A stretch of DNA of 64,000 nucleotides from Nostoc sp. UHCC 0302 (GTDB lineage Bacteria; Cyanobacteriota; Cyanobacteriia; Cyanobacteriales; Nostocaceae). Below, one piece after another: positions 7,016 through 54,795 of this stretch; positions within the stretch are counted from its first letter, which is position 1, and each line of letters opens with the position of its first letter. The stretch is taken from the NCBI RefSeq assembly GCF_038096175.1, contig NZ_CP151099.1:2048501-2112500 (forward strand). The letters are read 5' to 3'. The translations under genes were made by a program, and so were the position numbers. The notes beneath the pieces were generated by a model. That model saw nothing but the letters and a program-made list of their open reading frames with translations, made no database searches and was not told the origin of the DNA.

Positions 7016-7238
7016 CTGAAGTATATGTTAGGACGTTAAATGAATAGCTATATCAACTCTCTCCCGAAAATTTTCGATAGTACCAACGCAATTAATCACA
7101 CGTGCGATGCCTGCGGCAATCACAAAGGGGAACGTTTATGCCAAATTTTAATATCATGCTCACCTTAATAATAAAGTAAATTTTTACCTTTTTCTTGGAA
7201 GATCAGAAATATACTACTTACCTGCATCAACTAATCAG

Positions 7239-8597
7239 ATGGACATAATTAAATACACTCTGAGTGAATATCAGATGCCTACTGCTTGGTACAACATCCA
7301 AGCTGACTTGCCACAAGCCTTACCACCAGTTTTAAATCCTGGTAATGGTAAGCCAATTACATCAGATGATTTATTACCTCTATTCCCATTGGCACTGATT
7401 GAACAAGAAGTTAGTCAACAAAGATGGATTGAAATACCAGATGTAGTACGCTCTATTTATTGCCAATGGCGACCGACTCCTCTTTATCGCGCCCGTCGTT
7501 TAGAAAAAGCTTTGGATACACCTGCCAAAATTTACTACAAGTATGAAGGTGTTAGTCCTTCTGGAAGCCACAAACCGAATACGGCAGTCGCCCAAGCATA
7601 CTACAACAAACAAGCTGGGGTCAAAAGACTAACTACTGAAACCGGAGCAGGACAGTGGGGTTCATCTCTAGCATTTGCTGGGGCGCTATTCAACCTAGAA
7701 GTCTTAGTTTACATGGTAAAAGTCAGCTACCAGCAAAAACCTTACCGTCGAGCGTTAATGGAAAGCTACGGTGCGAAAGTAATTGCTAGTCCAAGTACTG
7801 AAACTCAAGCAGGACGCCAAATTCTTGCAGAACATCCCAACAGCACAGGCAGTTTGGGTATTGCTATTAGTGAAGCTGTGGAAGTCGCTGCTGCTGATGA
7901 AGAAAGTAAGTATGCTTTAGGCAGTGTTCTCAATCACGTACTCCTGCATCAAACTGTGATTGGGCAAGAAGCACTTACTCAGTTAGAGATGGCAGAAGAT
8001 TATCCTGATATTGTAATTGGCTGCACAGGTGGAGGTAGTAACTTTGCCGGAATTACCTTTCCATTTCTCGGTGCTAAACTGCGAGGCGAACGAGATATAC
8101 AAGTAATAGCTGTCGAACCAGCTGCTTGCCCATCATTAACTCGTGGCAAATATGCTTACGACTTTGGTGATACTGCTCAGTTAACTCCACTGACCAAGAT
8201 GCACACTTTAGGTAGTGGATTTGTACCTGAAGGCATCCATGCCGGTGGTTTACGTTATCACGGTATGGCTCCCCTAGTCAGTCATATTGTGAATTTGGGA
8301 TTAGTTCAATCACGTGCTGAACACCAACTCGGTTGCTTTGCTGCTGGATTAACTTTTGCAAAAGCAGAAGGAATCTTACCAGCGCCAGAAGCAAACCATG
8401 CAGTCAAAGCAGCGATTGATGAGGCAAAGCTTTGCAAAGAAGAAGGAAGAAGCAAAACTATCCTGTTCAATCTTTGCGGTCATGGACACTTTGATATGCA
8501 AGCTTATATCGATTATCAAGCTGGACGGCTTGTGGATACTGAATATAGTGCTTCCGAAGTGGCAATGGCGCTCGCAGGATTACCTGTAGTTAACTAG
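7239..8597 (+). CDS. TrpB2-type tryptophan synthase beta-like PLP enzyme
   Basis: 452-aa fold-type II PLP enzyme of the TrpB2 (TrpB-like) family. It is longer than canonical TrpB (about 400) and has the N-terminal extension with PLFP/ALIEQE. PLP lysine is Lys112 in GSHKPNTA; the phosphate-binding loop is [20 protein letters not shown] is the substrate loop. Family knowledge: TrpB2 makes tryptophan from indole and serine without TrpA, or uses related substrates. No trpA is nearby, so here it may salvage indole. It stands alone and faces hypE across a strong hairpin. The start is the first ATG; no clear ribosome-binding site, so Met13 is an alternative. Confidence 0.85.
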
Positions 8598-8608
8598 TTA
8601 CTTATAAT

Positions 8609-8643
8609 TTATCTTGTGCTGTCAGTGCTGAAGCACAAGATAA
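8609..8643. terminator. Perfect 12-bp hairpin between convergent trpB2 and hypE
   Basis: TTATCTTGTGCT at 8609-8620 and its exact complement at 8632-8643, with an 11-base loop, starting just after the trpB2 stop. There is no long T-tract on the plus side, so it may be a 3'-end stabiliser or a dispersed palindrome rather than a classical terminator. Confidence 0.5.
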
Positions 8644-8803
8644 CACCATCGGGGGCTGATATGATGTCCGGTAAATTATCCATAGTTAAGCCGCCAGGTC
8701 AGACCACCAGTGAAAATTGGTTAAACCATATACACAATCAGGCTGGTCAATCCAATTAAAAATTAAAAATGTAAAATTAAAAAAAGTGACAAAAGAAGAC
8801 TAT

Positions 8804-9850
8804 TCAGCAAATGCGTGGTAATTGTTCTCCACTGAGCATATCAACAATTCGAGTAGAACCGATTTTACTTTTTATTGTCACCAGTCCTGAAGATATTTGT
8901 GTGACTCTGCCAATAATCTGGGTTAATGTGCCGGCAGGGTGCAAATGCATTACTTCTAGCGCTTTTTCAACATCTGCTTTTGGGATAAACATGACAAACC
9001 GTCCTTCATTGGCGATATAAAGGGGGTCAAAACCTAAAATTTCGCAAGCACCCTGCACATCTTCACGAATGGGAATCGAGTTTTCATCAATTGCAATTTC
9101 AACTTTTGCTGCTTCAGCAATTTCATTTAATGCACTTGCTAAACCCCCACGAGTTAAATCTCGCATACAGTGAATTTCTATTCCAGATGCCAACAGTGCG
9201 AGAACTAAATCAGCAAGTGGGGCTGAGTCACTTTCTATAGCTGTCTCAAATTCTAAACCTTCTCTAACTGCCATAATCGCAATTCCATGCCGCCCAATAT
9301 CTCCATTCAGCAGTAGAACATCGCCTAGTTGCACGCTTTGAGGCGCAATGATTTGGGAATGCTCGATAATGCCAATACCTGCTGTGTTAATAAAAATGCC
9401 GTCTCCTTTACCTCGATTTACTACTTTGGTGTCACCTGTTATAATCTGCACTTTGGCGGTTTTAGCTGCTTGCTGCATAGATTGCACGACTTGCCAAAGA
9501 GTTTGAGTTGGCAATCCTTCTTCGATAATGAAACCAACACTCAAATAAAGTGGGCGGGCGCCGCACATTGCTAAATCGTTGACAGTGCCATTCACTGCTA
9601 AAGAACCAATATCACCACCTGGAAAAAATAGTGGTTGGACAACGTAAGAATCTGTTGTCAAAGCTAACTGTTGTTGCTGAATGGTAAACCTGGCTGCATC
9701 GTGCCGGACATTTAGGAGCGGGTTATCAAAAGTTGCTAAAAACATCTTTTCAATGAGTTGATGCATTAGCTTGCCACCCCCACCATGTGCTAGCAGGATG
9801 TTAGGATACTGGGTTATAGGAATGGGACATGATAGTGAGAAATTTTCCAT
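8804..9850 (-). CDS. hypE: Hydrogenase maturation protein HypE (carbamoyl dehydratase)
   Basis: HypE dehydrates the thiocarbamate on its own C-terminal cysteine to a thiocyanate, providing CN ligands for the Fe of the [NiFe] site together with HypF, HypC and HypD. The 348-aa sequence has the PurM/AIR-synthase-like ATP fold: LLAHGGGG near the start, [29 protein letters not shown], and [11 protein letters not shown]. It ends in the diagnostic PRIC with the carrier Cys as last residue. It is the last gene of the ATPase-DHOD-hypD-hypE run; 9 bases separate it from hypD. Confidence 0.95.
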
Positions 9851-9859
9851 TATTTATAT

Positions 9860-11005
9860 TTATATAATGTTTGCGATTTGCCGATAGCGATAGTAAGCTG
9901 CACATGATCCTTCTGATGACACCATCGGCGCACCAAGGGGATGTTCTGGAGTGCAATAGCTACCAAAGGCAGGGCATTGATGAGGTTTTTTGACTCCTTG
10001 TAAAATTAACCCACTGATACATTGAGCAGATTCTTCAGTTTTCTGATTAGCAAGAGGAAAACGTTTTTGTGCGTCGAATTCAATATATTTCTGGCGAAGC
10101 TTTAGCCCACTTTCTGGTATTTCGCCTATTCCCCGCCATTTGCGATCGCCCCTCGCAAATACTTCGTTGATCATTTGTTGAGCGGCTTGATTTCCATCAC
10201 GGCGGACTGAACGAGTGTACTGATTTTCAACTTGCGATCGCCCCTCTTGTAACTGTTTCACACATAAGTACACGCCTTGCAAAATATCTAATGGCTCAAA
10301 TCCCGTAACTACTATAGGGACGTGATATTTTTGCGAGATTGGTTCGTATTCGGTGTAACCCATCACAGTACAGACGTGTCCAGCTGCCAAAAATCCTTGC
10401 ACACAATTATCTGGTGAAGCCAGAATAGCCTCCATTGCTGGAGGTACTAGGACGTGTGACACTAGTAAGGAGAAATTTTTTATCCTTTGTTCATGTGCTT
10501 GGTAAATAGCCATTGCTGTAGCAGGTGCAGTGGTTTCAAAGCCGACTGCAAAGAATACAACTTGTTTGCTGGGATTGGCTTGAGCAATTTTCAGCACATC
10601 TAAGGGCGAGTAAACAATACGAACGTCTCCCCCATTCGCCTTAACTGTTAATAAATCTCTTTGTGATTGATCAGCTTTGTTTTCTGTTTGTCCTATTTCC
10701 TTGCTGCTCCTGCTTCCTGGCACTCGTAGCATATCGCCGAAGGAACAAAAAATCACTTCCGGAAGTGAAGCGATCGCGATTGCTTGATCAATTAACTCCA
10801 CAGGGGTAACGCAAACAGGACAACCAGGGCCGTGAATCAGGGTAATTTCTTGAGGTAAAAGCTCATCTATGCCAAATTTGACAATAGAATGAGTTTGTCC
10901 GCCGCAGATTTCCATAATCGCCCAAGGTTGGTTAGTAATTTGTGCGATCGCTTGTGCATAATGTTGCGCGATCGCAGCATCACGATATTCATCAACGAAT
11001 TTCAT
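9860..11005 (-). CDS. hypD: Hydrogenase maturation protein HypD, with an in-frame insert
   Basis: HypD is the Fe4S4 scaffold on which Fe(CN)2CO is built together with HypC. Visible motifs: [53 protein letters not shown], and the C-terminal cluster cysteines near [29 protein letters not shown]. Between RVPGS and DLLTVKA (residues about 97-114) lies a hydrophilic stretch rich in S, K, Q and E. Other HypD proteins I know have only about three residues there; it is likely a repeat-derived insertion in a surface loop. 18 bases downstream of the DHOD-like gene. Confidence 0.94.
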
Positions 11006-11023
11006 AGTAATAAATTAAAACTT

Positions 11024-46405: not shown

Positions 46406-46909
46406 TTATTTTGCAAAATTAGGAGCGATCGCAGCCATGATCAAGAGAAAGGCAATCTCTAGCAAATAGCTGATACAGACACTACGATTCAGCAAACCAT
46501 CCCACAGATAACCTTTATGTTGGGGAGTTGGACTGCGCTTGAAAGTATAAGTCCAACTCCCGTAGATTTTAGGACTCAACAAACCATAAGTATTAATGAA
46601 AATGGACTCAATTTGAGCAATGCGGGGATAAAAACCACGCTGAAAATGTTTCCATTGACTTTCAAGAATCCAGAAAAATATGGGTATAGCACAACCCATA
46701 ATAGCAATGGTAATGGCATTTTGTTTTTCTTTTAACATCAATCCTAAAACAGCACTAGTACCAGTAATACCCAGCGCTTTGATGATCCAAATCTGCTTAT
46801 TATAGTCTTCGATAGTAGTTTGCAGAAAAAAGTATTCCTGTTTGAGCAAATCTAGTTCAAAATCATCTAGCGGACTCGAATGAGATTCAGTAGATGGTGG
46901 TGTAGACAT
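46406..46909 (-). CDS. Unknown membrane protein
   Basis: 167 aa: a hydrophilic N-terminus, amphipathic helix (DFELDLLKQEYFFLQTTIED), paired transmembrane helices (about 42-60 and 66-85), a soluble middle part with GLLSPKIYGSWTY, and a final transmembrane helix (about 143-163). The helix-TM-TM plan recalls small SLATT/S-4TM-type pore proteins associated with conflict systems, but I could not match a family. It is downstream of the cyclodipeptide synthase gene by about 155 bases on the same strand, and convergent with ppsA. Confidence 0.6.
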   Translation of the reverse strand: MSTPPSTESHSSPLDDFELDLLKQEYFFLQTTIEDYNKQIWIIKALGITGTSAVLGLMLKEKQNAITIAIMGCAIPIFFWILESQWKHFQRGFYPRIAQIESIFINTYGLLSPKIYGSWTYTFKRSPTPQHKGYLWDGLLNRSVCISYLLEIAFLLIMAAIAPNFAK

Positions 46910-47065: not shown

Positions 47066-48220
47066 TCATCTACCTTTAAGATGTAAAGAAACATGGATAA
47101 TTTTTTTTAGGCTATCGGGAACACCAGAATAATGCCCTTCGGCAATTTCTCCTAAAATCTTTAATAAAGAGCCTGGATAAATCATTATTGATAAGTCGTC
47201 TTTAACAAGACAGGCAAAAATAGCTAATTCTTCGAGTAAATATCTAGATGACAATTCTACATAACTATCAAAATTTTCAGTATTTTGTTCAAAGTGCCGA
47301 AGGACAAACTCTTTCACAGAAGATTTAACTGAATTGGCAAAATTCTCATTCTGTCTAATAATATTTTTTAATTGTTCATAATATTTAAAATAATCTTCTG
47401 TTTTTTGTATTTCTGAGCAAAAGATTACATTAAAAAGACAGTTAGCAGTGTAATTATCAAAAACATAACTTGCATTATCTACATACTCTCTTCCTAAAAT
47501 TAGTGCCTTGTTAAGGGACTGTTTTTCATTTAAACCTTGATTTATTTGTAAAGTAATTCGATGTATGCTATCACCAATCAAAACAGTGCATTTTTTAAAA
47601 TGTTTACTAATCCAATCCGTCATTCCTATTAATCTTGCTATGGAAAAATTTTTACTTTCTAAACTTATCCCTAAAAAACAATGTTCATATATATCAAGTT
47701 CATGCCTAGCAACTTGTGGGATAACTGCTGCAATTTCTACCCGATATTTTGGTCTAGTCGAAAATACTATGCCCTTGTGAGGATTGACTAGTTTTTCAAA
47801 ATCAGCATACTTCATTCTAACCAAATGAGCATAAGAATAAGCGTAGAATGCAACCTCTTGATTTTTAGCTAAATCTTGCCACCAAAAAACCTCCATATTG
47901 TAAAGTTCCCCGAAGGGAGGAAGTGTCCCAAATTCGCAATAGGGGAATAAATGCTCAAATTCTTTCTGCTGAAGTAATCTACCTTTGTTTATATCTAAAG
48001 CTGCTTGGAGAGAGCCTACATTGGCTTGTAAACTGGCTGGTAAAAGAGTCACAGCTATTTTTTGTCCGTCAATTTCTACTAGTACAGCTTCAATTAAATC
48101 CATTCCTAACGTATATTTATATGTTGTAAGTTCTTGTGACGTATGAGCAAGTGAATAATGAATCGTTTTATATTTAATTTTGTGAAAATTGAGGAATTCT
48201 TGAAGTTGCTGGATAGACAT
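47066..48220 (-). CDS. YbaK-cyclodipeptide synthase fusion
   Basis: 384 aa. Residues 1-150 are a YbaK/ProX-type aminoacyl-tRNA deacylase domain (LFPYCEFGTLPPFGELY; SYAHLVRMKYADFEKLV), but the usual catalytic Lys of the AKxV motif is Glu44. Residues about 160-384 match tRNA-dependent cyclodipeptide synthases: FLGISLESKNFS with the acyl-accepting Ser186, VLIGDSIHRITLQ, LNKALILGREYVD, Tyr327 and Glu331 (YLLEE spacing as AlbC Tyr178/Glu182), and Tyr348-Pro349. Residue 189 is Ser, not Asn, pointing to the XYP subfamily. The product would be a diketopiperazine from two aminoacyl-tRNAs; the amino acids cannot be predicted. No oxidase, P450 or methyltransferase lies beside it. ATG chosen over a TTG two codons earlier. 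Confidence 0.85.
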   Translation of the reverse strand: MSIQQLQEFLNFHKIKYKTIHYSLAHTSQELTTYKYTLGMDLIEAVLVEIDGQKIAVTLLPASLQANVGSLQAALDINKGRLLQQKEFEHLFPYCEFGTLPPFGELYNMEVFWWQDLAKNQEVAFYAYSYAHLVRMKYADFEKLVNPHKGIVFSTRPKYRVEIAAVIPQVARHELDIYEHCFLGISLESKNFSIARLIGMTDWISKHFKKCTVLIGDSIHRITLQINQGLNEKQSLNKALILGREYVDNASYVFDNYTANCLFNVIFCSEIQKTEDYFKYYEQLKNIIRQNENFANSVKSSVKEFVLRHFEQNTENFDSYVELSSRYLLEELAIFACLVKDDLSIMIYPGSLLKILGEIAEGHYSGVPDSLKKIIHVSLHLKGR

Positions 48221-48294: not shown

Positions 48295-51200
48295 CTAGGA
48301 AGAACTATCTGTGTTGTCACACACCTTTAAATCTTTTCGATTATGAGAATTGTTGGCAAAATAGTCCTTGAGCCAATTACGCCCTCTTGCCAAAAGACGC
48401 TCAAAATTTTCAATTGACCATAGCCGAACAGTTCCATTTACAGAACTTGTGGCTAGCATCTGTCCATCGGGGCTAAAACTAACACTATAAACCGCTCCCT
48501 CATGGTCTTTGAATTCTTGCACTAATTGCCCCTGTAAGTCCCACAGACAGGCTGTACCATCGGCAGAACCAGTGGCTAGCATCTGTCCATCGGGGCTAAA
48601 ACTGATACTCCAGACCCAGTTTTTGTGACCTTTGAATTGTTGTAATAACTTACCTTGCAAATCCCACAGGCGGGCTGTACCATCGGCAGAACCAGTGGCT
48701 AGCATCCGTCCATCGGGGCTAAAACTGACACTCCAAACCCAGCCCTTGTGACCTTTAAATTGTTGTAATAACTTACCTTGTAAATCCCATAGGCGGGCAG
48801 TATTATCGGCAGCACCAGTGACTAGCATCTGTCCATCCGGACTGAAATTGACGCTCCAAACTGGATTATTGTGTTTAAATTCTTGTAGTAAGTTGCCTTG
48901 CAAGTTCCACAAGCGAGCTGTACCATCCTCAGATGAGGCAGTAGCAAAATACTTACCATCTGGGCTAAAACAGATGCTCCAGACCCAGCCTTTATGACCT
49001 TTATATTCTTGTAGTAAATTGCCCTGTAAATCACACAGATGGGCAGTACCATCTTCTGAACCAGTGGCCAGTTTCTGTCCATCGGGACTAAAACTAACAC
49101 TCAAGATAGGGCCATCATGATCTTGAAAAGGATTACCAATAGCATTGCCTTGTAAGCCCCACAGGCGGGCAGTTTTGTCAGATGAGCCAGTGGCTAGCAT
49201 CTGTCCATCTGGGCTGAAACTGACACTCCAAACCAAGCCCTTATGACCGTTGAATTTGGCTAAATGCTTGTTTCTTGAGTTCCACAGGCGAACTATGCCG
49301 TCAGCAGAGCTGGTGGCGATGTGTTGCCCATCGGGGCTGAAACTGGCACTCCAAACAAAGCCCTTATGATCTTTAAATACAGCCAATTGATTACCTTGTA
49401 AGTCCCACAGACGGGATGTGCCGTCAGCAGAGCAAGTGGCAAGGTGCTGACCATCGGGACTAAAACTGACGTTATATACCCAACACTGATGGCCTATAAA
49501 TTCTTGCTGTAGCTTGCCTTGCAAGTCCCATAGGCGAGCAGTACCATCAGATGAGGCAGTAGCAAAGTGCTTTCCATCAGGACTAAAACTGATGCTATAA
49601 ACTGTAACCCCATTGACTAGAAATTTATCCCAAGAGTTATTTTGTAAATCCCATAAGCAGACATGACCGTCAGATGAGGCAGTAGCAAGGTACTTTCCAT
49701 CCGGTGGACTAAAACTAACGCTCCAAATCCAGCCCTTATGAACTTGGAAAGATTCACCAATCTGATTACCTTGTAAGTCCCATAGGCGGGCCGTACCGTC
49801 GGCAGAGCCAGTAGCAAGATATTTACCATCAGGACTAAAACTGACACTCAAAACCCAACCCTGATGACCTTTGAGTTCTTGTTTTAAGTTACCCTGTAAG
49901 TCCCACAGGTAGGCAGTATGGTCAGTCGAACCCGTAGCAAAATACTTACCATTGGGGCTAAAACTGACGCAATAAACCCAGCCCTGATGACCTTTGAATT
50001 CTTGTTTTAAGTGACCTTGTAAATCCCACAAACGGGCAGTATTATCTTCTGAGCCAGTAGCTAAATACTCACTATCAGGGCTGAAATTGACGCTATAGAT
50101 AGTTGTTGGGTGTGCTTGAAATTGATTCTCCTCTCTGATGTTGTCAAGAATCTTCTGCAATGTAGCTTTTAATTGGGGAGCGTGACAATTTTGGGGTAAC
50201 AGTCCATCTTGAATGTTATTCTGAAACTCTTGTCCAGCACGCATCGCTGTCAGTAATGCTTCTAACTCAGAAGACTCAAATTGTAGCAAAGCATCTTTCG
50301 CCATCTGCTCAATTTGTTTGATTTTGCGTTGACGCTGTAGCCGCTTCCAGATTGCTTTAGCCAAAACATCTAAGAAAATTTCATAGTAATCAGCAGCTAG
50401 TGGGCGGATAATTCGAGCCTCGCCTTGACTAAGTTTATTTAGCCATTGATAAACCCTTTCTATCTCAAGTTTTTCAGTTTGGTTTGGTTCTGCGTTAACG
50501 TAATCACATAAATCTTTGGCTTTGAGAGCAAGTTTATCACCAGATGGTGTAACTAAGTAGTAAAAGAGACGATAAGAAGTATCAATATTGAAATCAGTCT
50601 TGAAATCTTCCAGCTTTTGATCGAGATGATCTTGGACAATTTGCTCTGATTTGCCTAAGTTTATATAGCTTTGTTTTTCTAGGCTGTGAGAAAGAGATTC
50701 ACCACTTATTTCCTGTTTCCATAGACGCAGCATTACCAGTTGGAGGTAAGGAGTTTCAAACCTCTGTTCTGACTGTGCTTGCGAAAGAGCTATATCATCC
50801 AAAACTGCTGTAACTAAGTCTAGTTCAATACTGACTAATTCATCTTTGATAGATTGAATAATTGTAGAATCGAGCAAATTATCTACAATAGGTTCTTTTT
50901 TGACAAAACTTGAGGATATGTGTAAGTAATACGGGCATAATTTAACTATATCTTTTTTAAAGATATTAAGTTTTTGAATAGTATTGCTGTGAAGACAAAG
51001 GAGCAAATTAATATTTAATTCTGGATGATTAATTGCACGAAAAATTTCATCTAAAAATAATTGTGTTTTATCTGTAGGAGAAGGGGTTAAGTATTCCTCG
51101 AACTGGTCAAGGATAATGAAGATCTTAGCACTCTCATCAATATTAATAAGCTTTGTCCATGCCTGTAAAGTGTCAGTAAATGATAAATCTAAGTGAGGAA

Positions 51201-52230
51201 CTTCGATATTTACTATATCTTTAATAGATTTCTTAATTTGCAACAATAAATTATCTAATGGTTTGCCTTCATACCAACAATTAAATAGGGTAACTGCTAA
51301 TTTTGGCTTGCCAGATGTTTGCATATTTTGTTCTGCTGCTTGATGCAGATAATAAGCAACACCATCTCGCAAAATTGTACTTTTACCTGCACTACTGTCA
51401 CCGTAGAGTACGGTTAACTTTGATTTACACAAGTTATCAAGGATAGTTTGCTGTCGGTTATATTCAGCAATTGGTTTCTCAATTGCATCCTGTGCTGATT
51501 GGCGGTTCAGATGTTTGATTGCTATACGATTGTCTAATAAGTTACGGAAGATGCGACCTTTAAAATGGTCAAGTTTAGACAGGGCATCTTCACGAATAGA
51601 AATGAGGAAATGAAGATTCAAACTAGAGTTATTAACAGCTTGAGAAAATTCATCAGCGAAGGTGTCTTGAACACTATCGTTGAAGAAATCAAAATAGTCC
51701 TCGAACTGATCTAGGATAATAAATAACCTACCGTTCTCATCTTCTTGGTGAACAATCTCTATCCAAGCCTTCAAGATATCGGTAAAAGAAGGTTGTTCTG
51801 GATTTTTAGTAATAGCTTTGAGTGCTTGCTCAAATTGTTGCTTAATTTCACGTGGTGATTCAGTATCGAAAAGACTAGTTATTTCTGCTTCCAATTGTTT
51901 CTTGATCCCTGTCAGTGGATCTTGCCAAGACAAACTATCATCTAATTCGCCTTTCAGTGGAGGAAAAACGATCGCACCCCACCCTGGCTTACCAGTTGTT
52001 TCTTGGTTTTCCAAGGCAGCTTGACGCAAATTATAAGCAACACCCGCCCGCATGAGCGAACTTTTACCTACACCACTAGCCCCATAGACAACTGTCAGCC
52101 TTGAAGCCCACAAATTTTGAATCACTATTTGTTGCTCTTTTTCTCGCCCAAAGAAGAACAACTTATCTGTTTGTGAATAAGGAATTAGTCCTTTGTAGGG
52201 TGCAGGAATCTCAATGCTATCACAGTACAT
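48295..52230 (-). CDS. Double P-loop STAND NTPase with 14 WD40 repeats
   Basis: 1311 aa. Two related NTPase modules in tandem: GASGVGKS (50-57) with Walker B FIILDQFEDY (170-179), and GDSSAGKS (277-284) with FIILDQFEEY (371-380). Both have arms typical of the nSTAND1 group (FFGREKEQQ at the N-terminus). Then come a helical winged region (about 430-700) and 14 WD40 repeats (about 715-1285; units FSPDGQMLATGSADGTARLWDLQG), fitting two seven-bladed propellers. High identity between blades suggests ongoing repeat shuffling. STAND proteins act as signal-triggered switches in bacterial conflict and cell-death responses; an effector is probably supplied by the preceding MPE-SIR2 gene, which ends 32 bases upstream. 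Confidence 0.9.
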   Translation of the reverse strand: MYCDSIEIPAPYKGLIPYSQTDKLFFFGREKEQQIVIQNLWASRLTVVYGASGVGKSSLMRAGVAYNLRQAALENQETTGKPGWGAIVFPPLKGELDDSLSWQDPLTGIKKQLEAEITSLFDTESPREIKQQFEQALKAITKNPEQPSFTDILKAWIEIVHQEDENGRLFIILDQFEDYFDFFNDSVQDTFADEFSQAVNNSSLNLHFLISIREDALSKLDHFKGRIFRNLLDNRIAIKHLNRQSAQDAIEKPIAEYNRQQTILDNLCKSKLTVLYGDSSAGKSTILRDGVAYYLHQAAEQNMQTSGKPKLAVTLFNCWYEGKPLDNLLLQIKKSIKDIVNIEVPHLDLSFTDTLQAWTKLINIDESAKIFIILDQFEEYLTPSPTDKTQLFLDEIFRAINHPELNINLLLCLHSNTIQKLNIFKKDIVKLCPYYLHISSSFVKKEPIVDNLLDSTIIQSIKDELVSIELDLVTAVLDDIALSQAQSEQRFETPYLQLVMLRLWKQEISGESLSHSLEKQSYINLGKSEQIVQDHLDQKLEDFKTDFNIDTSYRLFYYLVTPSGDKLALKAKDLCDYVNAEPNQTEKLEIERVYQWLNKLSQGEARIIRPLAADYYEIFLDVLAKAIWKRLQRQRKIKQIEQMAKDALLQFESSELEALLTAMRAGQEFQNNIQDGLLPQNCHAPQLKATLQKILDNIREENQFQAHPTTIYSVNFSPDSEYLATGSEDNTARLWDLQGHLKQEFKGHQGWVYCVSFSPNGKYFATGSTDHTAYLWDLQGNLKQELKGHQGWVLSVSFSPDGKYLATGSADGTARLWDLQGNQIGESFQVHKGWIWSVSFSPPDGKYLATASSDGHVCLWDLQNNSWDKFLVNGVTVYSISFSPDGKHFATASSDGTARLWDLQGKLQQEFIGHQCWVYNVSFSPDGQHLATCSADGTSRLWDLQGNQLAVFKDHKGFVWSASFSPDGQHIATSSADGIVRLWNSRNKHLAKFNGHKGLVWSVSFSPDGQMLATGSSDKTARLWGLQGNAIGNPFQDHDGPILSVSFSPDGQKLATGSEDGTAHLCDLQGNLLQEYKGHKGWVWSICFSPDGKYFATASSEDGTARLWNLQGNLLQEFKHNNPVWSVNFSPDGQMLVTGAADNTARLWDLQGKLLQQFKGHKGWVWSVSFSPDGRMLATGSADGTARLWDLQGKLLQQFKGHKNWVWSISFSPDGQMLATGSADGTACLWDLQGQLVQEFKDHEGAVYSVSFSPDGQMLATSSVNGTVRLWSIENFERLLARGRNWLKDYFANNSHNRKDLKVCDNTDSSS

Positions 52231-52262: not shown

Positions 52263-54419
52263 CTACTGTTTTTTCAGTTTGTTGTTCAATTCATCAAAAT
52301 ATATTTCTAAAGATATTTCACTCATGATTTCTACATCTTTATTCTTCCAAAGGAACTTATCCAAAGCATCAGGTTTTGGGTGAACTGCCCACCATGTTTG
52401 TGTCTTCCTTTTTTCTTTCTCTGGCAACAAGCGGTGTAAAATGACACGCTGATGCCAATAGCGTAGGCTATATCCTAAAAACCAAATATGGCTGTTGTTG
52501 AGTTTGCCTAACAGATAGCTTGGCAGTAAATCCACAGGTTTGTTATCGGCATAAGCTAAATAGTCAATAAAATGATCTTCTGTGATCGCAAAGCTTTTTC
52601 TTGGGCGTTCTGGCAAATCAACAGGGCCATAGAGTTTTAAGATGACTGGACGCTCATTGAGTGAAAAGTCTGAATATTCGTTAGCAGTTCCTGGCGGAAT
52701 CGGTTTTAGTTGACCTATTTGAACTACTGGTGAATCCTTATTTCCCTCAATTTCATGTTCAAATCTTTGATGGACAAACTGTTTAACAATCTGTCCTTCG
52801 CTATCTTCAGCACCTGCCGTATAAGAAACTAAATCGAATGGCTGCTTGGCATTTATAAAGGCTTGTTCTAGTGTTCTGTCAAAATTGGTCGTTACTATTA
52901 GTTGATAACGAGTTTTTTCACCTAAACTTTTAATCCTAGCGGAATAGCCCATCTCATCCATGAAACGAGGAAGTTTAGCTAAGAACTGATGCAATCGGTT
53001 AGGTTTGTATTCTTTTTCAGTGATGGCTGCGATTGTCTCTTTGATGTTCTCTTCACCCTCACTCAGAAGATTGAAGTATTGCGACACATTCTGAAGATCC
53101 AGTCTAGTTACAAATTGTGTCATAATTGGACAGTTAGCAGGCAAATTTTCTTCGTCGCATAACGGACAACGCATTCTCTGTAAGTATTTATGGCTTCTAT
53201 CTAGGTAAGCAGCGACTTCTACACTAGTAGGTGGATAGTCACTGTTCAGGTTCCATTCCCACGGTTTGGGTGCCAAATTTGGATCTTGTGAGCGATCGCA
53301 TAAGTTAATATCTGCTCCCAAGAAAGGAATGACTAAGCCATTTTTGATTTTGGGAATTAGCCAATCGAAGTGTTGTTTAAGCGTGTTTTGTATTTCGTCT
53401 GGCAATATTCCAATACTTGGGATATTTCGGTTTCTAATCTCTTTTTTTGGAAGTTCAAAGGTGATATACCCATCCTCATGGGACTTTGCTGTGTGTTTGC
53501 ACCAGTAGTTGCCATTATCATCCCAGAGGCGCAGATATACGATTCCTTTATTAGTTTCAAAATCAAGGTGTACAAAATTGTAACCATTGTGATAACCACG
53601 GTTGCTGTAGCTGGAACCAGCTGGAATAATTACACAGTTTCCTGTTGTCCCAGTTACTTGATAAGCTTTAGCTTGATGCTGATGACCGCATAGAAGAAAA
53701 TGACACCCATCGTTGTCTTGAAGACGTTGTGTGATTAGATCGCGTTCAAATTCAGCTAGCAATTCTAACGGATGATGCAGCACCGCAATCCGAACCTCAT
53801 CACTAGCTATTTTGTGGAGGGCATCATACAATTGAGGTTCTCCAACAATTAGTTTTCCATCATCATTTACTTCTCCTCTTTCATTTACCCGCCCAGCCAT
53901 TAAAGCAGAGTTTAGACCAAGCAATGCTACCCGCTTTCCATCGATCGATAGCCTGCGGATACTGCTGTAGTCAGGTTGAGTCTGATGTGTGTATTGAGTA
54001 ACAAATTCTCTATAGGCTTCAAAGGGTTCCCGCAGGCGATCGCATTTTTTTTTGTTCGTCAGCCAATCTTTGACCTGCTCATTAGACTCAAAGGGCTGGA
54101 GGATAGAATTTGGTAGCAATTCAAAGGCACTGCGATCGAGGTCGTGGTTGCCTGGTACAATAAACAGCTGCTCGGCAGTTAACCCAGTTGCTTGAAGCAC
54201 AGGCTCGAATAAATTTTCCCACGCTGCTGTATATTCTTCCTTTTTACCAGCGTGAGCCACATCACCACTAAAGATGATGAAATCAATCTTTGCCAAGTCT
54301 GGACTGATTTTCTCCCGCTCCTCAATATCTCTAATTAAGGCATCACGTACAACCTGCCTGTCAAATTCTTTCCCCTTCTGATGCCAATCTGAAAGATGAA
54401 GCCAAGTCATTCCCGCCAT
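52263..54419 (-). CDS. Metallophosphoesterase-SIR2-like fusion protein
   Basis: 718 aa. Residues 1-320 are a calcineurin-like phosphoesterase (LHLSDWHQKG, FSGDVAH, VPGNHDLD, LHHPLE, CGHQHQA: all five metal motifs). Residues about 335-718 are a SIR2-like domain: VIPFLGADINL, IVTTNFDRTLEQAF, ILKLYGPVD, AITEDHFIDYL, and WFLGYSLRYWHQRVI. Four cysteines (CPLCDEENLPANCP and a neighbour) may bind zinc. SIR2-like domains without the deacetylase zinc core are NAD-degrading effectors in many anti-phage systems; here fused to a nuclease/phosphodiesterase-like partner. It shares an operon with the STAND-WD40 gene. AGGGAG precedes the ATG. Confidence 0.85.
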   Translation of the reverse strand: MAGMTWLHLSDWHQKGKEFDRQVVRDALIRDIEEREKISPDLAKIDFIIFSGDVAHAGKKEEYTAAWENLFEPVLQATGLTAEQLFIVPGNHDLDRSAFELLPNSILQPFESNEQVKDWLTNKKKCDRLREPFEAYREFVTQYTHQTQPDYSSIRRLSIDGKRVALLGLNSALMAGRVNERGEVNDDGKLIVGEPQLYDALHKIASDEVRIAVLHHPLELLAEFERDLITQRLQDNDGCHFLLCGHQHQAKAYQVTGTTGNCVIIPAGSSYSNRGYHNGYNFVHLDFETNKGIVYLRLWDDNGNYWCKHTAKSHEDGYITFELPKKEIRNRNIPSIGILPDEIQNTLKQHFDWLIPKIKNGLVIPFLGADINLCDRSQDPNLAPKPWEWNLNSDYPPTSVEVAAYLDRSHKYLQRMRCPLCDEENLPANCPIMTQFVTRLDLQNVSQYFNLLSEGEENIKETIAAITEKEYKPNRLHQFLAKLPRFMDEMGYSARIKSLGEKTRYQLIVTTNFDRTLEQAFINAKQPFDLVSYTAGAEDSEGQIVKQFVHQRFEHEIEGNKDSPVVQIGQLKPIPPGTANEYSDFSLNERPVILKLYGPVDLPERPRKSFAITEDHFIDYLAYADNKPVDLLPSYLLGKLNNSHIWFLGYSLRYWHQRVILHRLLPEKEKRKTQTWWAVHPKPDALDKFLWKNKDVEIMSEISLEIYFDELNNKLKKQ

Positions 54420-54495: not shown

Positions 54496-54795
54496 TTAGA
54501 GGATCTGTTCTGCAACTTCTATTTGTAATAGCGATCGCACATTTTCGATTTGATTGACAATAGTTGCCACCGACGAGCCAGCAAACAACAGCCCTACAGC
54601 CGCCGGGGTGTTATTTACCAAAGTAGCAACCACTGAACCAGAGTCACCACCAGCCGAAAGATTGGTAGTAACTATCTGATCCTTGAAACGGGCTGTCCTC
54701 CCGTTACCATAGCCCACATCAATAGTGGCACTAATCGCCGTAATTCTACCGCTTGTGAAGTTTGTGGTGCGTCCAGTTATTATTTTATTTCCTCA
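54496..54795 (-). pseudogene. 3' fragment of a trypsin-like serine protease gene
   Basis: About 98 codons reading ITGRTTNFTSGRITAIS and then AGGDSGSVV, the active-site Ser motif of chymotrypsin-fold proteases, ending in a complete C-terminus. Upstream the frame meets a stop (TGA near 54797) with no start codon, and the His and Asp of the triad are missing. Similar proteases accompany STAND-type conflict loci in cyanobacteria (family knowledge), so this may be the decayed third member of the locus. Confidence 0.65.

Follow-up and report, generated by a model that had tools for sequence, protein, structure and literature searches.

A cyclodipeptide synthase fused to a degenerate YbaK-like domain and linked to SIR2-like and STAND genes in Nostoc

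Background

According to the accessible part of PMC2922099, the cyclodipeptide synthases (CDPSs) known at that time were stand-alone proteins, and a CDPS was induced during the antibacterial response of an annelid. Multidomain CDPSs appear in the accessible part of PMC5816076, where NYH-type enzymes are fused to methyltransferase, P450 or ABC transporter domains at their C-termini. Here we describe a 384-residue CDPS encoded in a 64,000-nucleotide stretch of the Nostoc sp. UHCC 0302 genome (NZ_CP151099.1, positions 2,048,501 to 2,112,500; hereafter the window). This protein is likewise multidomain; however, it carries an N-terminal tRNA-editing fold, related to YbaK, on an XYP-type enzyme. Fused methyltransferases are also mentioned in the accessible text of PMC5767969, in which the word 'editing' is absent, and the terms 'fused' and 'editing domain' in that of PMC9437257 are unrelated to YbaK-CDPS fusions.

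The CDPS half most closely resembles the structure 9j61, with which it shares the CDPS fold, six chosen pocket positions, and all catalytic residues except that at position 40 (Ser in the window protein, Asn in 9j61). However, 9j61 is a stand-alone enzyme, whereas in the window protein a YbaK domain precedes the CDPS, and its gene belongs to a conflict-type operon. The YbaK-like half has the fold of 3op6 and the YbaK/ProX trans-editing proteins, but the lysine and the Asn/Gly/His cluster of those proteins are replaced in 10 to 11 of the 11 fusions described below. A YbaK-like fold is also N-terminal in two other larger proteins, SadB (9qzk, Z 17.4) and Maqu_0641 (3mem, Z 16.4), the second of which is titled a putative signal transduction protein. 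The partner domain in both is one that we take to be HDOD, and we know of no CDPS associated with either.

The operon around the fusion gene resembles the STAND conflict systems of multicellular bacteria (nSTAND1 in PMC8195603; PMC7159879) in its nSTAND1 NTPase, repeat sensor, swapped effectors and small membrane protein, as these are set out in the accessible portions of both papers. The words 'CDPS', 'dipeptide' and 'YbaK' do not occur in the text of either, and the combination of a constant SIR2-like core, an nSTAND1-WD40 protein and a CDPS is absent from those portions. Among the literature matches listed, with subscription papers and bioRxiv mostly outside the scope of the search, there is no recognisable description of a YbaK-CDPS fusion and nothing recognisable that places a CDPS within STAND, NACHT or anti-phage systems. 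Co-mentions of cyclodipeptide synthase and YbaK, in the parts of the two sources available, are lists of separate proteins. A Trichoderma genome paper (PMC3218866) contains the CDPS term as well as the words 'stand', 'NTPase' and 'NACHT'.

The YbaK-CDPS fusion

The fusion gene lies on the minus strand and runs from an ATG at 48220 to a stop codon ending at 47066, with a TTG in frame 6 bases upstream of the ATG. It consists of a YbaK/ProX-fold domain (approximately residues 1–150) joined to an XYP-type CDPS (residues 155–384):

47066..48220, minus strand: YbaK-like/CDPS fusion protein, 384 residues (Pfam, NCBIfam and PDB sequence matches, AlphaFold model)
47777..48220, minus strand: N-terminal YbaK/ProX-fold domain, residues 1–148, Glu44 in place of the catalytic Lys (Pfam tRNA_edit, fold match to 3op6, column comparison)
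47069..47758, minus strand: C-terminal XYP-type cyclodipeptide synthase domain, residues 155–384 (TIGR04539, 9j61, residues S186, S189, Y327, E331, Y348 and P349)

An initial annotation, made from the window sequence, had placed a CDPS fused to a YbaK-type tRNA deacylase domain at 47066–48220, and the profile matches, PDB matches and structural model bear out both the location and the fusion. Residues 25–144 match Pfam tRNA_edit (2.1e-9, 37.9 bits against a curated cut-off of 25.5) and residues 178–335 match Pfam CDPS (1.9e-12, 47.8 bits against a curated cut-off of 27). The NCBIfam model TIGR04539 scores 98.7 bits (cut-off 45), and the YbaK_EbsC equivalog model scores 18.4 bits, below its cut-off of 153.25. 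The best PDB sequence matches are 9j61 for the CDPS half (residues 158–384, E 1.8e-52) and the YbaK-like lpg1207 structure 3op6 for the YbaK half (residues 1–147, E 9.1e-26). An AlphaFold model built from seven alignment rows was weak (pLDDT 67.7, pTM 0.50), and one built from 25 rows, with CDPS-only and YbaK-only relatives added, reached pLDDT 88.8 and pTM 0.84. The fold comparisons given below use the 25-row model against PDB chains preselected by Foldseek.

A contig search reaching close relatives only returned 11 loci. Four of these encode full fusions, in Nostoc paludosum (91% identity), N. parmelioides (90%), Amazonocrinis nigriterrae (79%) and a Prochloraceae metagenome-assembled genome (MAG; 63%), and the other seven match the YbaK part alone. 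The Prochloraceae MAG holds a second fusion copy (47% identity), and another copy (36% identity) occurs in a genome belonging to another order within the class. An order-wide profile search matched 30 of 388 genomes, including G001, G029 and G767 by short fragments only.

From samples of about 388 genomes we examined 38 CDPS loci including the window (given L numbers here), a count that leaves out L087, where stops interrupt the CDPS and there is no open reading frame (ORF). A YbaK-like part is present in 11 of the 38: the window, L013, L014, L015, L029 (also L016/L002), L027 (also L008), L028 (also L024), L064, L065, L066 and L067. The further YbaK-CDPS fusions that the initial annotation proposed to look for are thus found at ten more cyanobacterial loci. 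The N-terminus of the L064 fusion is disrupted, and the YbaK profile is matched only from about position 5 to 95 in L066 and L067. A chance ORF or an assembly join is ruled out, because both profiles fall on one ORF in all 11 loci. No fusion relatives were found in viral contigs, and 5 of 72,556 plasmid records match the fusion, none of them covering 80% of the protein. A Cupriavidus match is without annotation.

In a tree of the CDPS domain (41 rows, fragments excluded), the window, L013, L014, L015, L029, L027, L028 and L064 form one clade (95/90). L065 and the pair L066/L067 fall outside it, and the tree needs three label changes for the YbaK fusion, which implies that the two parts were joined repeatedly or that the YbaK part was lost repeatedly. 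From this placement, the fusion is either older than the clade of the window or has arisen more than once outside it.

Short decayed copies of approximately residues 1–46 of the fusion protein, about 50% identical and containing stops, occur elsewhere in the source genome (G000:C1:3379780-3379917 and 2199186-2199314). Similarly decayed copies are present in two relatives, at loci L006 and L007.

The CDPS half retains its catalytic residues

In the predicted model, the CDPS half superimposes on 9j61 with a Z score of 32.0 (220 aligned residues, root-mean-square deviation (rmsd) 1.8, 41% identity). Together with a match to 5ocd (Z 24.1), this identifies the CDPS fold, which is like that of class-I aminoacyl-tRNA synthetases. 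Comparison with AlbC and YbaK, which the initial annotation had suggested as a check, gives Z 16.8 for AlbC (3oqv; 200 aligned, rmsd 3.5) and Z 16.0 for YbaK (1dbu; 146 aligned, rmsd 2.5). The CDPS signatures it had named (S186, Y327/E331 and Y348-P349) are invariant in the seven-row alignment A1, and their equivalents are intact in 11 of 11 fusions. They correspond to Ser37, Tyr178, Glu182, Tyr202 and Pro203 of AlbC. The equivalent of AlbC position 40 is Ser, Asn or Thr in the fusions, and the Tyr-Pro pair is a mark of the XYP type.

Six positions, picked as pocket-lining from AlbC numbering, are identical (F, G, L, G, I, M) in the window protein, 9j61, L013, L014, L015 and L066, and there is at least one difference in L029, L027, L028, L064, L065 and L067. 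Streptomyces sapporonensis, the source of 9j61, is a bicyclomycin producer, and 9j61 is presumably its bicyclomycin CDPS, BcmA; no naming of 9J61 was found in the literature searched. The bicyclomycin core is cyclo(Ile-Leu), according to the accessible part of PMC5930311. By analogy, a product of the Leu/Ile type, such as cyclo(Leu-Ile) or cyclo(Leu-Leu), is only a reasonable guess for the window CDPS.

The editing site of the YbaK half is degenerate

The YbaK half superimposes best on 3op6 (Z 20.5, 147 aligned, rmsd 2.2, 35% identity). We compared the fusions with eight stand-alone relatives, consisting of 3op6 and seven loci (L018 omitted). At column 44, Lys is present in 8/8 stand-alone relatives versus 0/11 fusions, in agreement with the initial annotation, which had noted Glu44 in place of the usual Lys. 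Seven fusions have Glu at this position and one has Asp (acidic in 8/11); the other three have Ser or Asn. The same holds for His at column 129 (8/8 versus 0/11), and the nearby Asn at column 125 (7/8 versus 0/11) and Gly at column 127 (8/8 versus 1/11) are also largely or wholly lost. Lys44 and the Asn/Gly/His cluster are presumably the editing-site residues of YbaK. Structural positions are retained in the fusions, with Leu116 in 11/11 and Phe124 in 10/11.

An active deacylase was rejected on the loss of both Lys and His from every fusion, and with the editing site degenerate hydrolytic proofreading by this half appears unlikely. Despite these losses, the YbaK half is under constraint: when the window is compared with L015, its ratio of nonsynonymous to synonymous substitution rates (dN/dS) is 0.16, against 0.42 for the CDPS half. 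Over six pairs the closest give noisy values (L013 and L014, CDPS half, 1.72 at dS 0.015).

The SIR2-like/STAND operon

The occurrence of a CDPS in a STAND-type operon, a context that the initial annotation had missed, is a larger finding than the fusion itself. In the window, two partner genes lie upstream of the fusion gene on the same strand, and a third small gene lies downstream:

48295..52230, minus strand: nSTAND1 NTPase with C-terminal WD40 repeats, 1311 residues (Pfam nSTAND1 1.9e-50 and WD40; Walker A intact)
52263..54419, minus strand: calcineurin-like phosphoesterase fused to a SIR2_2-like domain with a KLYG motif, 718 residues (Pfam Metallophos 7.8e-15, SIR2_2 1.4e-15)
46406..46909, minus strand: small putative membrane protein, SLATT-like by inspection, uncertain as an operon member (no Pfam match; weak matches to PADLOC PDC-M50A)

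The STAND gene is separated from the CDPS ATG by 74 nt and the SIR2 gene from the STAND gene by 32 nt; the membrane-protein gene lies 156 nt downstream of the fusion gene. In a simple scan, the gap from the STAND gene to the CDPS gene contained no terminator-like site, and the promoter and terminator scans gave counts close to those of shuffled sequences. Other neighbours in the window are genes for a PEP-utilising enzyme and a Glu/Leu dehydrogenase.

The linkage of the CDPS to SIR2-like and STAND-WD40 genes is well supported. A SIR2 core and a STAND gene are found on the same strand at all seven close fusions with readable flanks (the window, L013, L014, L015, L029, L027 and L028); this count leaves out L064, where only 97 bases of contig precede the match on its upstream side. 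The gene order is SIR2, STAND, CDPS in the window, L013, L014, L015 and L029. In L028 it is CDPS, SIR2-TIR, STAND, with ORFs that overlap if the first start codon is used, and in L027 the CDPS is followed by a single SIR2-STAND ORF. The linkage therefore persists across three arrangements and down to 35% identity. The outer flanks are common to L013 and L014 and different at L015, L029, L027 and L028. The window shares with L013 and L014 only a remnant ORF and, in the case of L014, a pentapeptide-repeat-like ORF. The apparent remnant is a 73-residue ORF (54496–54717) with an 86% match to part of a 382-residue protein, whose gene in L013 and L014 lies on the upstream side of the operon.

The SIR2_2-like core of the partner has invariant Cys, TTxxD and KLYG residues across 7/7 loci. 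The Walker A motif of the STAND protein is intact in five of the seven loci: the window (with two P-loops), L013, L014, L015 and L029. In L028 (4535–7780) Gln replaces the lysine (GQT), and in L027 (5973–9770) the P-loop region is missing and the SIR2 core continues directly into the central part of the nSTAND1 profile, as if a deletion had fused the SIR2 and STAND genes. L027 and L028 are sisters in the CDPS tree, and both keep their CDPS catalytic residues. Either these operons are decaying, or the CDPS of this branch acts without NTP hydrolysis by its partner.

At L029 the SIR2 protein has no further Pfam domain (tested as L016), so the CDPS is the obvious enzyme there. L027 was also considered as a locus with the CDPS as its only enzyme; this is weakened by the missing P-loop region and by an adjoining patatin gene. 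Patatin-like phospholipase genes, 48% identical to each other, lie beside the operon in both L027 (11909–13045, from the Pfam run) and L028 (13237–14487). The small membrane protein was tried as a CDPS partner and rejected: it occurs at the four phosphoesterase-type fusion loci and at L117, where no CDPS was seen, and was not seen near L027, L028 or L029, so that its occurrence follows the phosphoesterase.

No P450, oxidase or methyltransferase is among the recurrent neighbours of the seven loci, and none was found in ten flanking ORFs run through Pfam except a truncated P450 in L029. When the window was tested as a diketopiperazine cluster, no tailoring gene adjoined the CDPS; the other loci are partly annotated. 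In the Prochloraceae genome, both the truncated P450 (L029:8127–8606) and a gene for a kinase/FGE-sulfatase fusion (9169–10932) are found on the upstream side of the operon.

SIR2-like/STAND loci without a CDPS

A profile of the SIR2 core identified 24 places in 17 of 388 genomes, three of which are known fusion loci. We examined 14 of the 21 others (L117–L130). A STAND gene is adjacent at 13 of the 14, while L128 stops at a contig end, and the Walker A lysine is kept in 13/13 of these genes. The 14 stretches gave no match to CDPS or YbaK, although six of them (L117, L118, L120, L123, L127 and L128) are truncated at a contig end. The further domains found by Pfam on the SIR2 protein are as follows (L128 was outside the Pfam run):

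phosphoesterase: L117, L120
TIR: L118, L119, L121
CHAT: L125
phosphorylase: L123, L126, L127, L129
trypsin: L130
ParA-like: L124
none further: L122

The histidine of an LHG motif is the usual SIR2 catalytic residue. LHG is present in no SIR2 core of the fusion loci or of the 14 others. The corresponding motif is KLYG in 7/7 fusion loci and xLYG in 10/14 of the others (KLYG in eight), and it is not in place in L122, L126, L127 and L128. Judging by this motif, the LYG SIR2-like core is possibly a non-hydrolytic adaptor and partner of nSTAND1. The CDPS carriers do not form one group in a 20-row SIR2 tree, which needs four changes, at least two of them forced. This scatter indicates that operons of this kind either gained the CDPS repeatedly or lost it repeatedly.

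The accessible portions of PMC8195603 and PMC7159879 list TIR, calcineurin, PNPase, trypsin and SIR2 among the domains that conflict systems use as effectors. The window has a STAND NTPase with a C-terminal repeat sensor, an intact Walker A motif, and effector domains that are swapped among relatives. The phosphoesterase half of the SIR2 protein has partial matches in PADLOC to PDC-S60 (2.2e-41) and to an 'Effector, Endonuclease' model (3.9e-34). On its domain content, the SIR2-like/nSTAND1-WD40 pair is a modular conflict-type operon.

Other CDPS contexts in cyanobacteria

Neighbours were clustered by BLAST (E 1e-8) within 7 kb of each CDPS gene. The SIR2/STAND group was found in none of the 31 other CDPS loci, some of which are on short contigs. 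Among the recurrent neighbours of XYP-type CDPS genes in cyanobacteria, a TerB-family gene is instead the most frequent, lying no more than 7 kb away at 20 of the 31 loci (L030, L031, L066, L067, L070–L073, L075, L076, L078–L086 and L088; called by Pfam on one locus and by BLAST clustering on the rest). It is on the same strand as the CDPS in 16 of the 20, and it is found at none of the seven STAND-linked loci. A P450-like gene is present at 4/31 loci (Pfam p450 in L069, L070 and L072; a fragment in L068, by BLAST only).

NACHT genes were identified by Pfam near the TerB-linked CDPS in L066, L079 and L088. These NTPases carry HEAT repeats, with an NNH2 N-terminal domain in L066 and L079. L030 encodes a 454-residue protein in which TerB (Pfam) is fused to a CDPS (local profile). 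The same locus (7098–11010) has three consecutive CDPS genes, one with the N-terminal TerB, and a separate TerB gene between them.

The TerB and other neighbours indicate that, in cyanobacteria, CDPSs of the XYP subfamily have two or more alternative partnerships. This speaks against the family being purely immune in origin, and also against most of these enzymes belonging to ordinary diketopiperazine clusters.

Discussion

We tentatively favour a reading in which the fusion is a STAND-controlled, effector-type CDPS that would consume aminoacyl-tRNA, with the YbaK fold binding without hydrolysis. The immune-like neighbourhood suggests a defence role over antibiotic making. For triggering, product, target and outcome we infer the following course. 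The WD40 part would sense an intruder or the damage it causes, the STAND NTPase would assemble with the SIR2-like protein, and this assembly would release or recruit the CDPS. The CDPS would load an aminoacyl group, perhaps Leu or Ile, from aminoacyl-tRNA onto Ser186 and join it to a second one to yield a cyclodipeptide. Depletion of particular charged tRNAs, accumulation of the cyclodipeptide, or both may then slow or stop the infected cell. The YbaK fold may have been retained to control the CDPS by binding aminoacyl-tRNA, a ligand, or the STAND or SIR2 partner; the selecting or holding of a charged tRNA, as the initial annotation had suggested, is one possible form of this.

Several observations weigh against this reading. 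Because the SIR2 protein of the window has a phosphoesterase of its own, the effector may be something other than the CDPS, and the absence of a CDPS from the 14 further SIR2-core stretches makes it accessory. No PADLOC model matches the fusion protein, and the phosphoesterase scores far under the cut-offs of NCBI antiphage models (116 versus 790 and 69 versus 420 bits). Four of the seven linked loci are from close Nostocaceae, and L027 and L029 are in one MAG, leaving about four independent lineages behind the linkage. The Walker A lysine is missing in two of the seven STAND partners, and the P-loop loss and patatin neighbour of L027 lower the probability of an effector-type CDPS and raise that of a natural-product enzyme. 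The rule that all YbaK-CDPS fusions lie in STAND operons is rejected by L065, L066 and L067, and the TerB and P450 neighbours described above (20/31 and 4/31 loci) show other associations, as does the 159-residue P450 fragment of L029, at 8.2 kb from the CDPS. According to the accessible part of PMC5816076, no product was obtained in E. coli from an XYP CDPS of the cyanobacterium Lyngbya confervoides.

It is unlikely, on balance, that the protein is an ordinary diketopiperazine-making CDPS that is co-carried with a defence-like operon on a mobile segment. Such an enzyme would fit the close structural match to the S. sapporonensis CDPS (Z 32.0 at 41% identity), the relatives in the same tree that lie beside a P450 (L069, L070 and L072, with L068 by BLAST only), the truncated P450 of L029, and the transposase genes on one flank of L028. 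The degenerate NTPases of L027 and L028, next to intact CDPS residues, are also in its favour. However, there is no tailoring gene in the operon or among the recurrent neighbours of the seven loci, and the linkage has survived rearrangement and extensive divergence amid mostly different outer flanks.

Cyclic nucleotides in CBASS and ADP-ribose derivatives in Thoeris are signalling parallels for a further reading, that the CDPS is not a toxin and that its cyclodipeptide is a signal activating the SIR2-like/phosphoesterase protein, TIR or the small membrane protein. The operons do contain other effector-type domains (phosphoesterase, TIR) and, at four of seven fusion loci, the small membrane protein; the CDPS residues are intact; and a SIR2-like domain with KLYG and without LHG could bind a ligand and not cleave it. 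We regard this as doubtful, a shade more so than a natural-product role, as no receptor is known for a cyclodipeptide, the LYG substitution also occurs in loci without a CDPS and so does not track it, and the membrane protein tracks the phosphoesterase.

Proofreading or hydrolysis of aminoacyl-tRNA by the YbaK domain, or protection of tRNA pools from draining, both raised in the initial annotation, is very improbable even with Glu44 standing in functionally for Lys: the fold matches and the acidic residue in 8/11 fusions are offset by the missing Lys, Asn, Gly and His and by Ser or Asn at position 44 in the other three, and the conflict-type context lends protection no support, since it fits draining as the purpose at least equally well.

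A STAND-controlled, effector-type CDPS thus remains the reading we prefer. More specifically, it is possible, at a lower probability, that a tRNA-dependent cyclodipeptide acts as an immune messenger or toxin under an NLR-like receptor, with the dead editing domain as a gauge of tRNA or ligand.

Conclusions

If the fusion is correctly read, it would give a role to a proofreading fold that has been stripped of its chemistry. With a CDPS under an NLR-like receptor, bacterial immunity would gain a new kind of output that either attacks charged tRNA or signals through a cyclodipeptide, and STAND control could account for CDPSs that seem inactive when expressed alone. STAND immunity would then have an arm that forms peptide bonds and consumes aminoacyl-tRNA.

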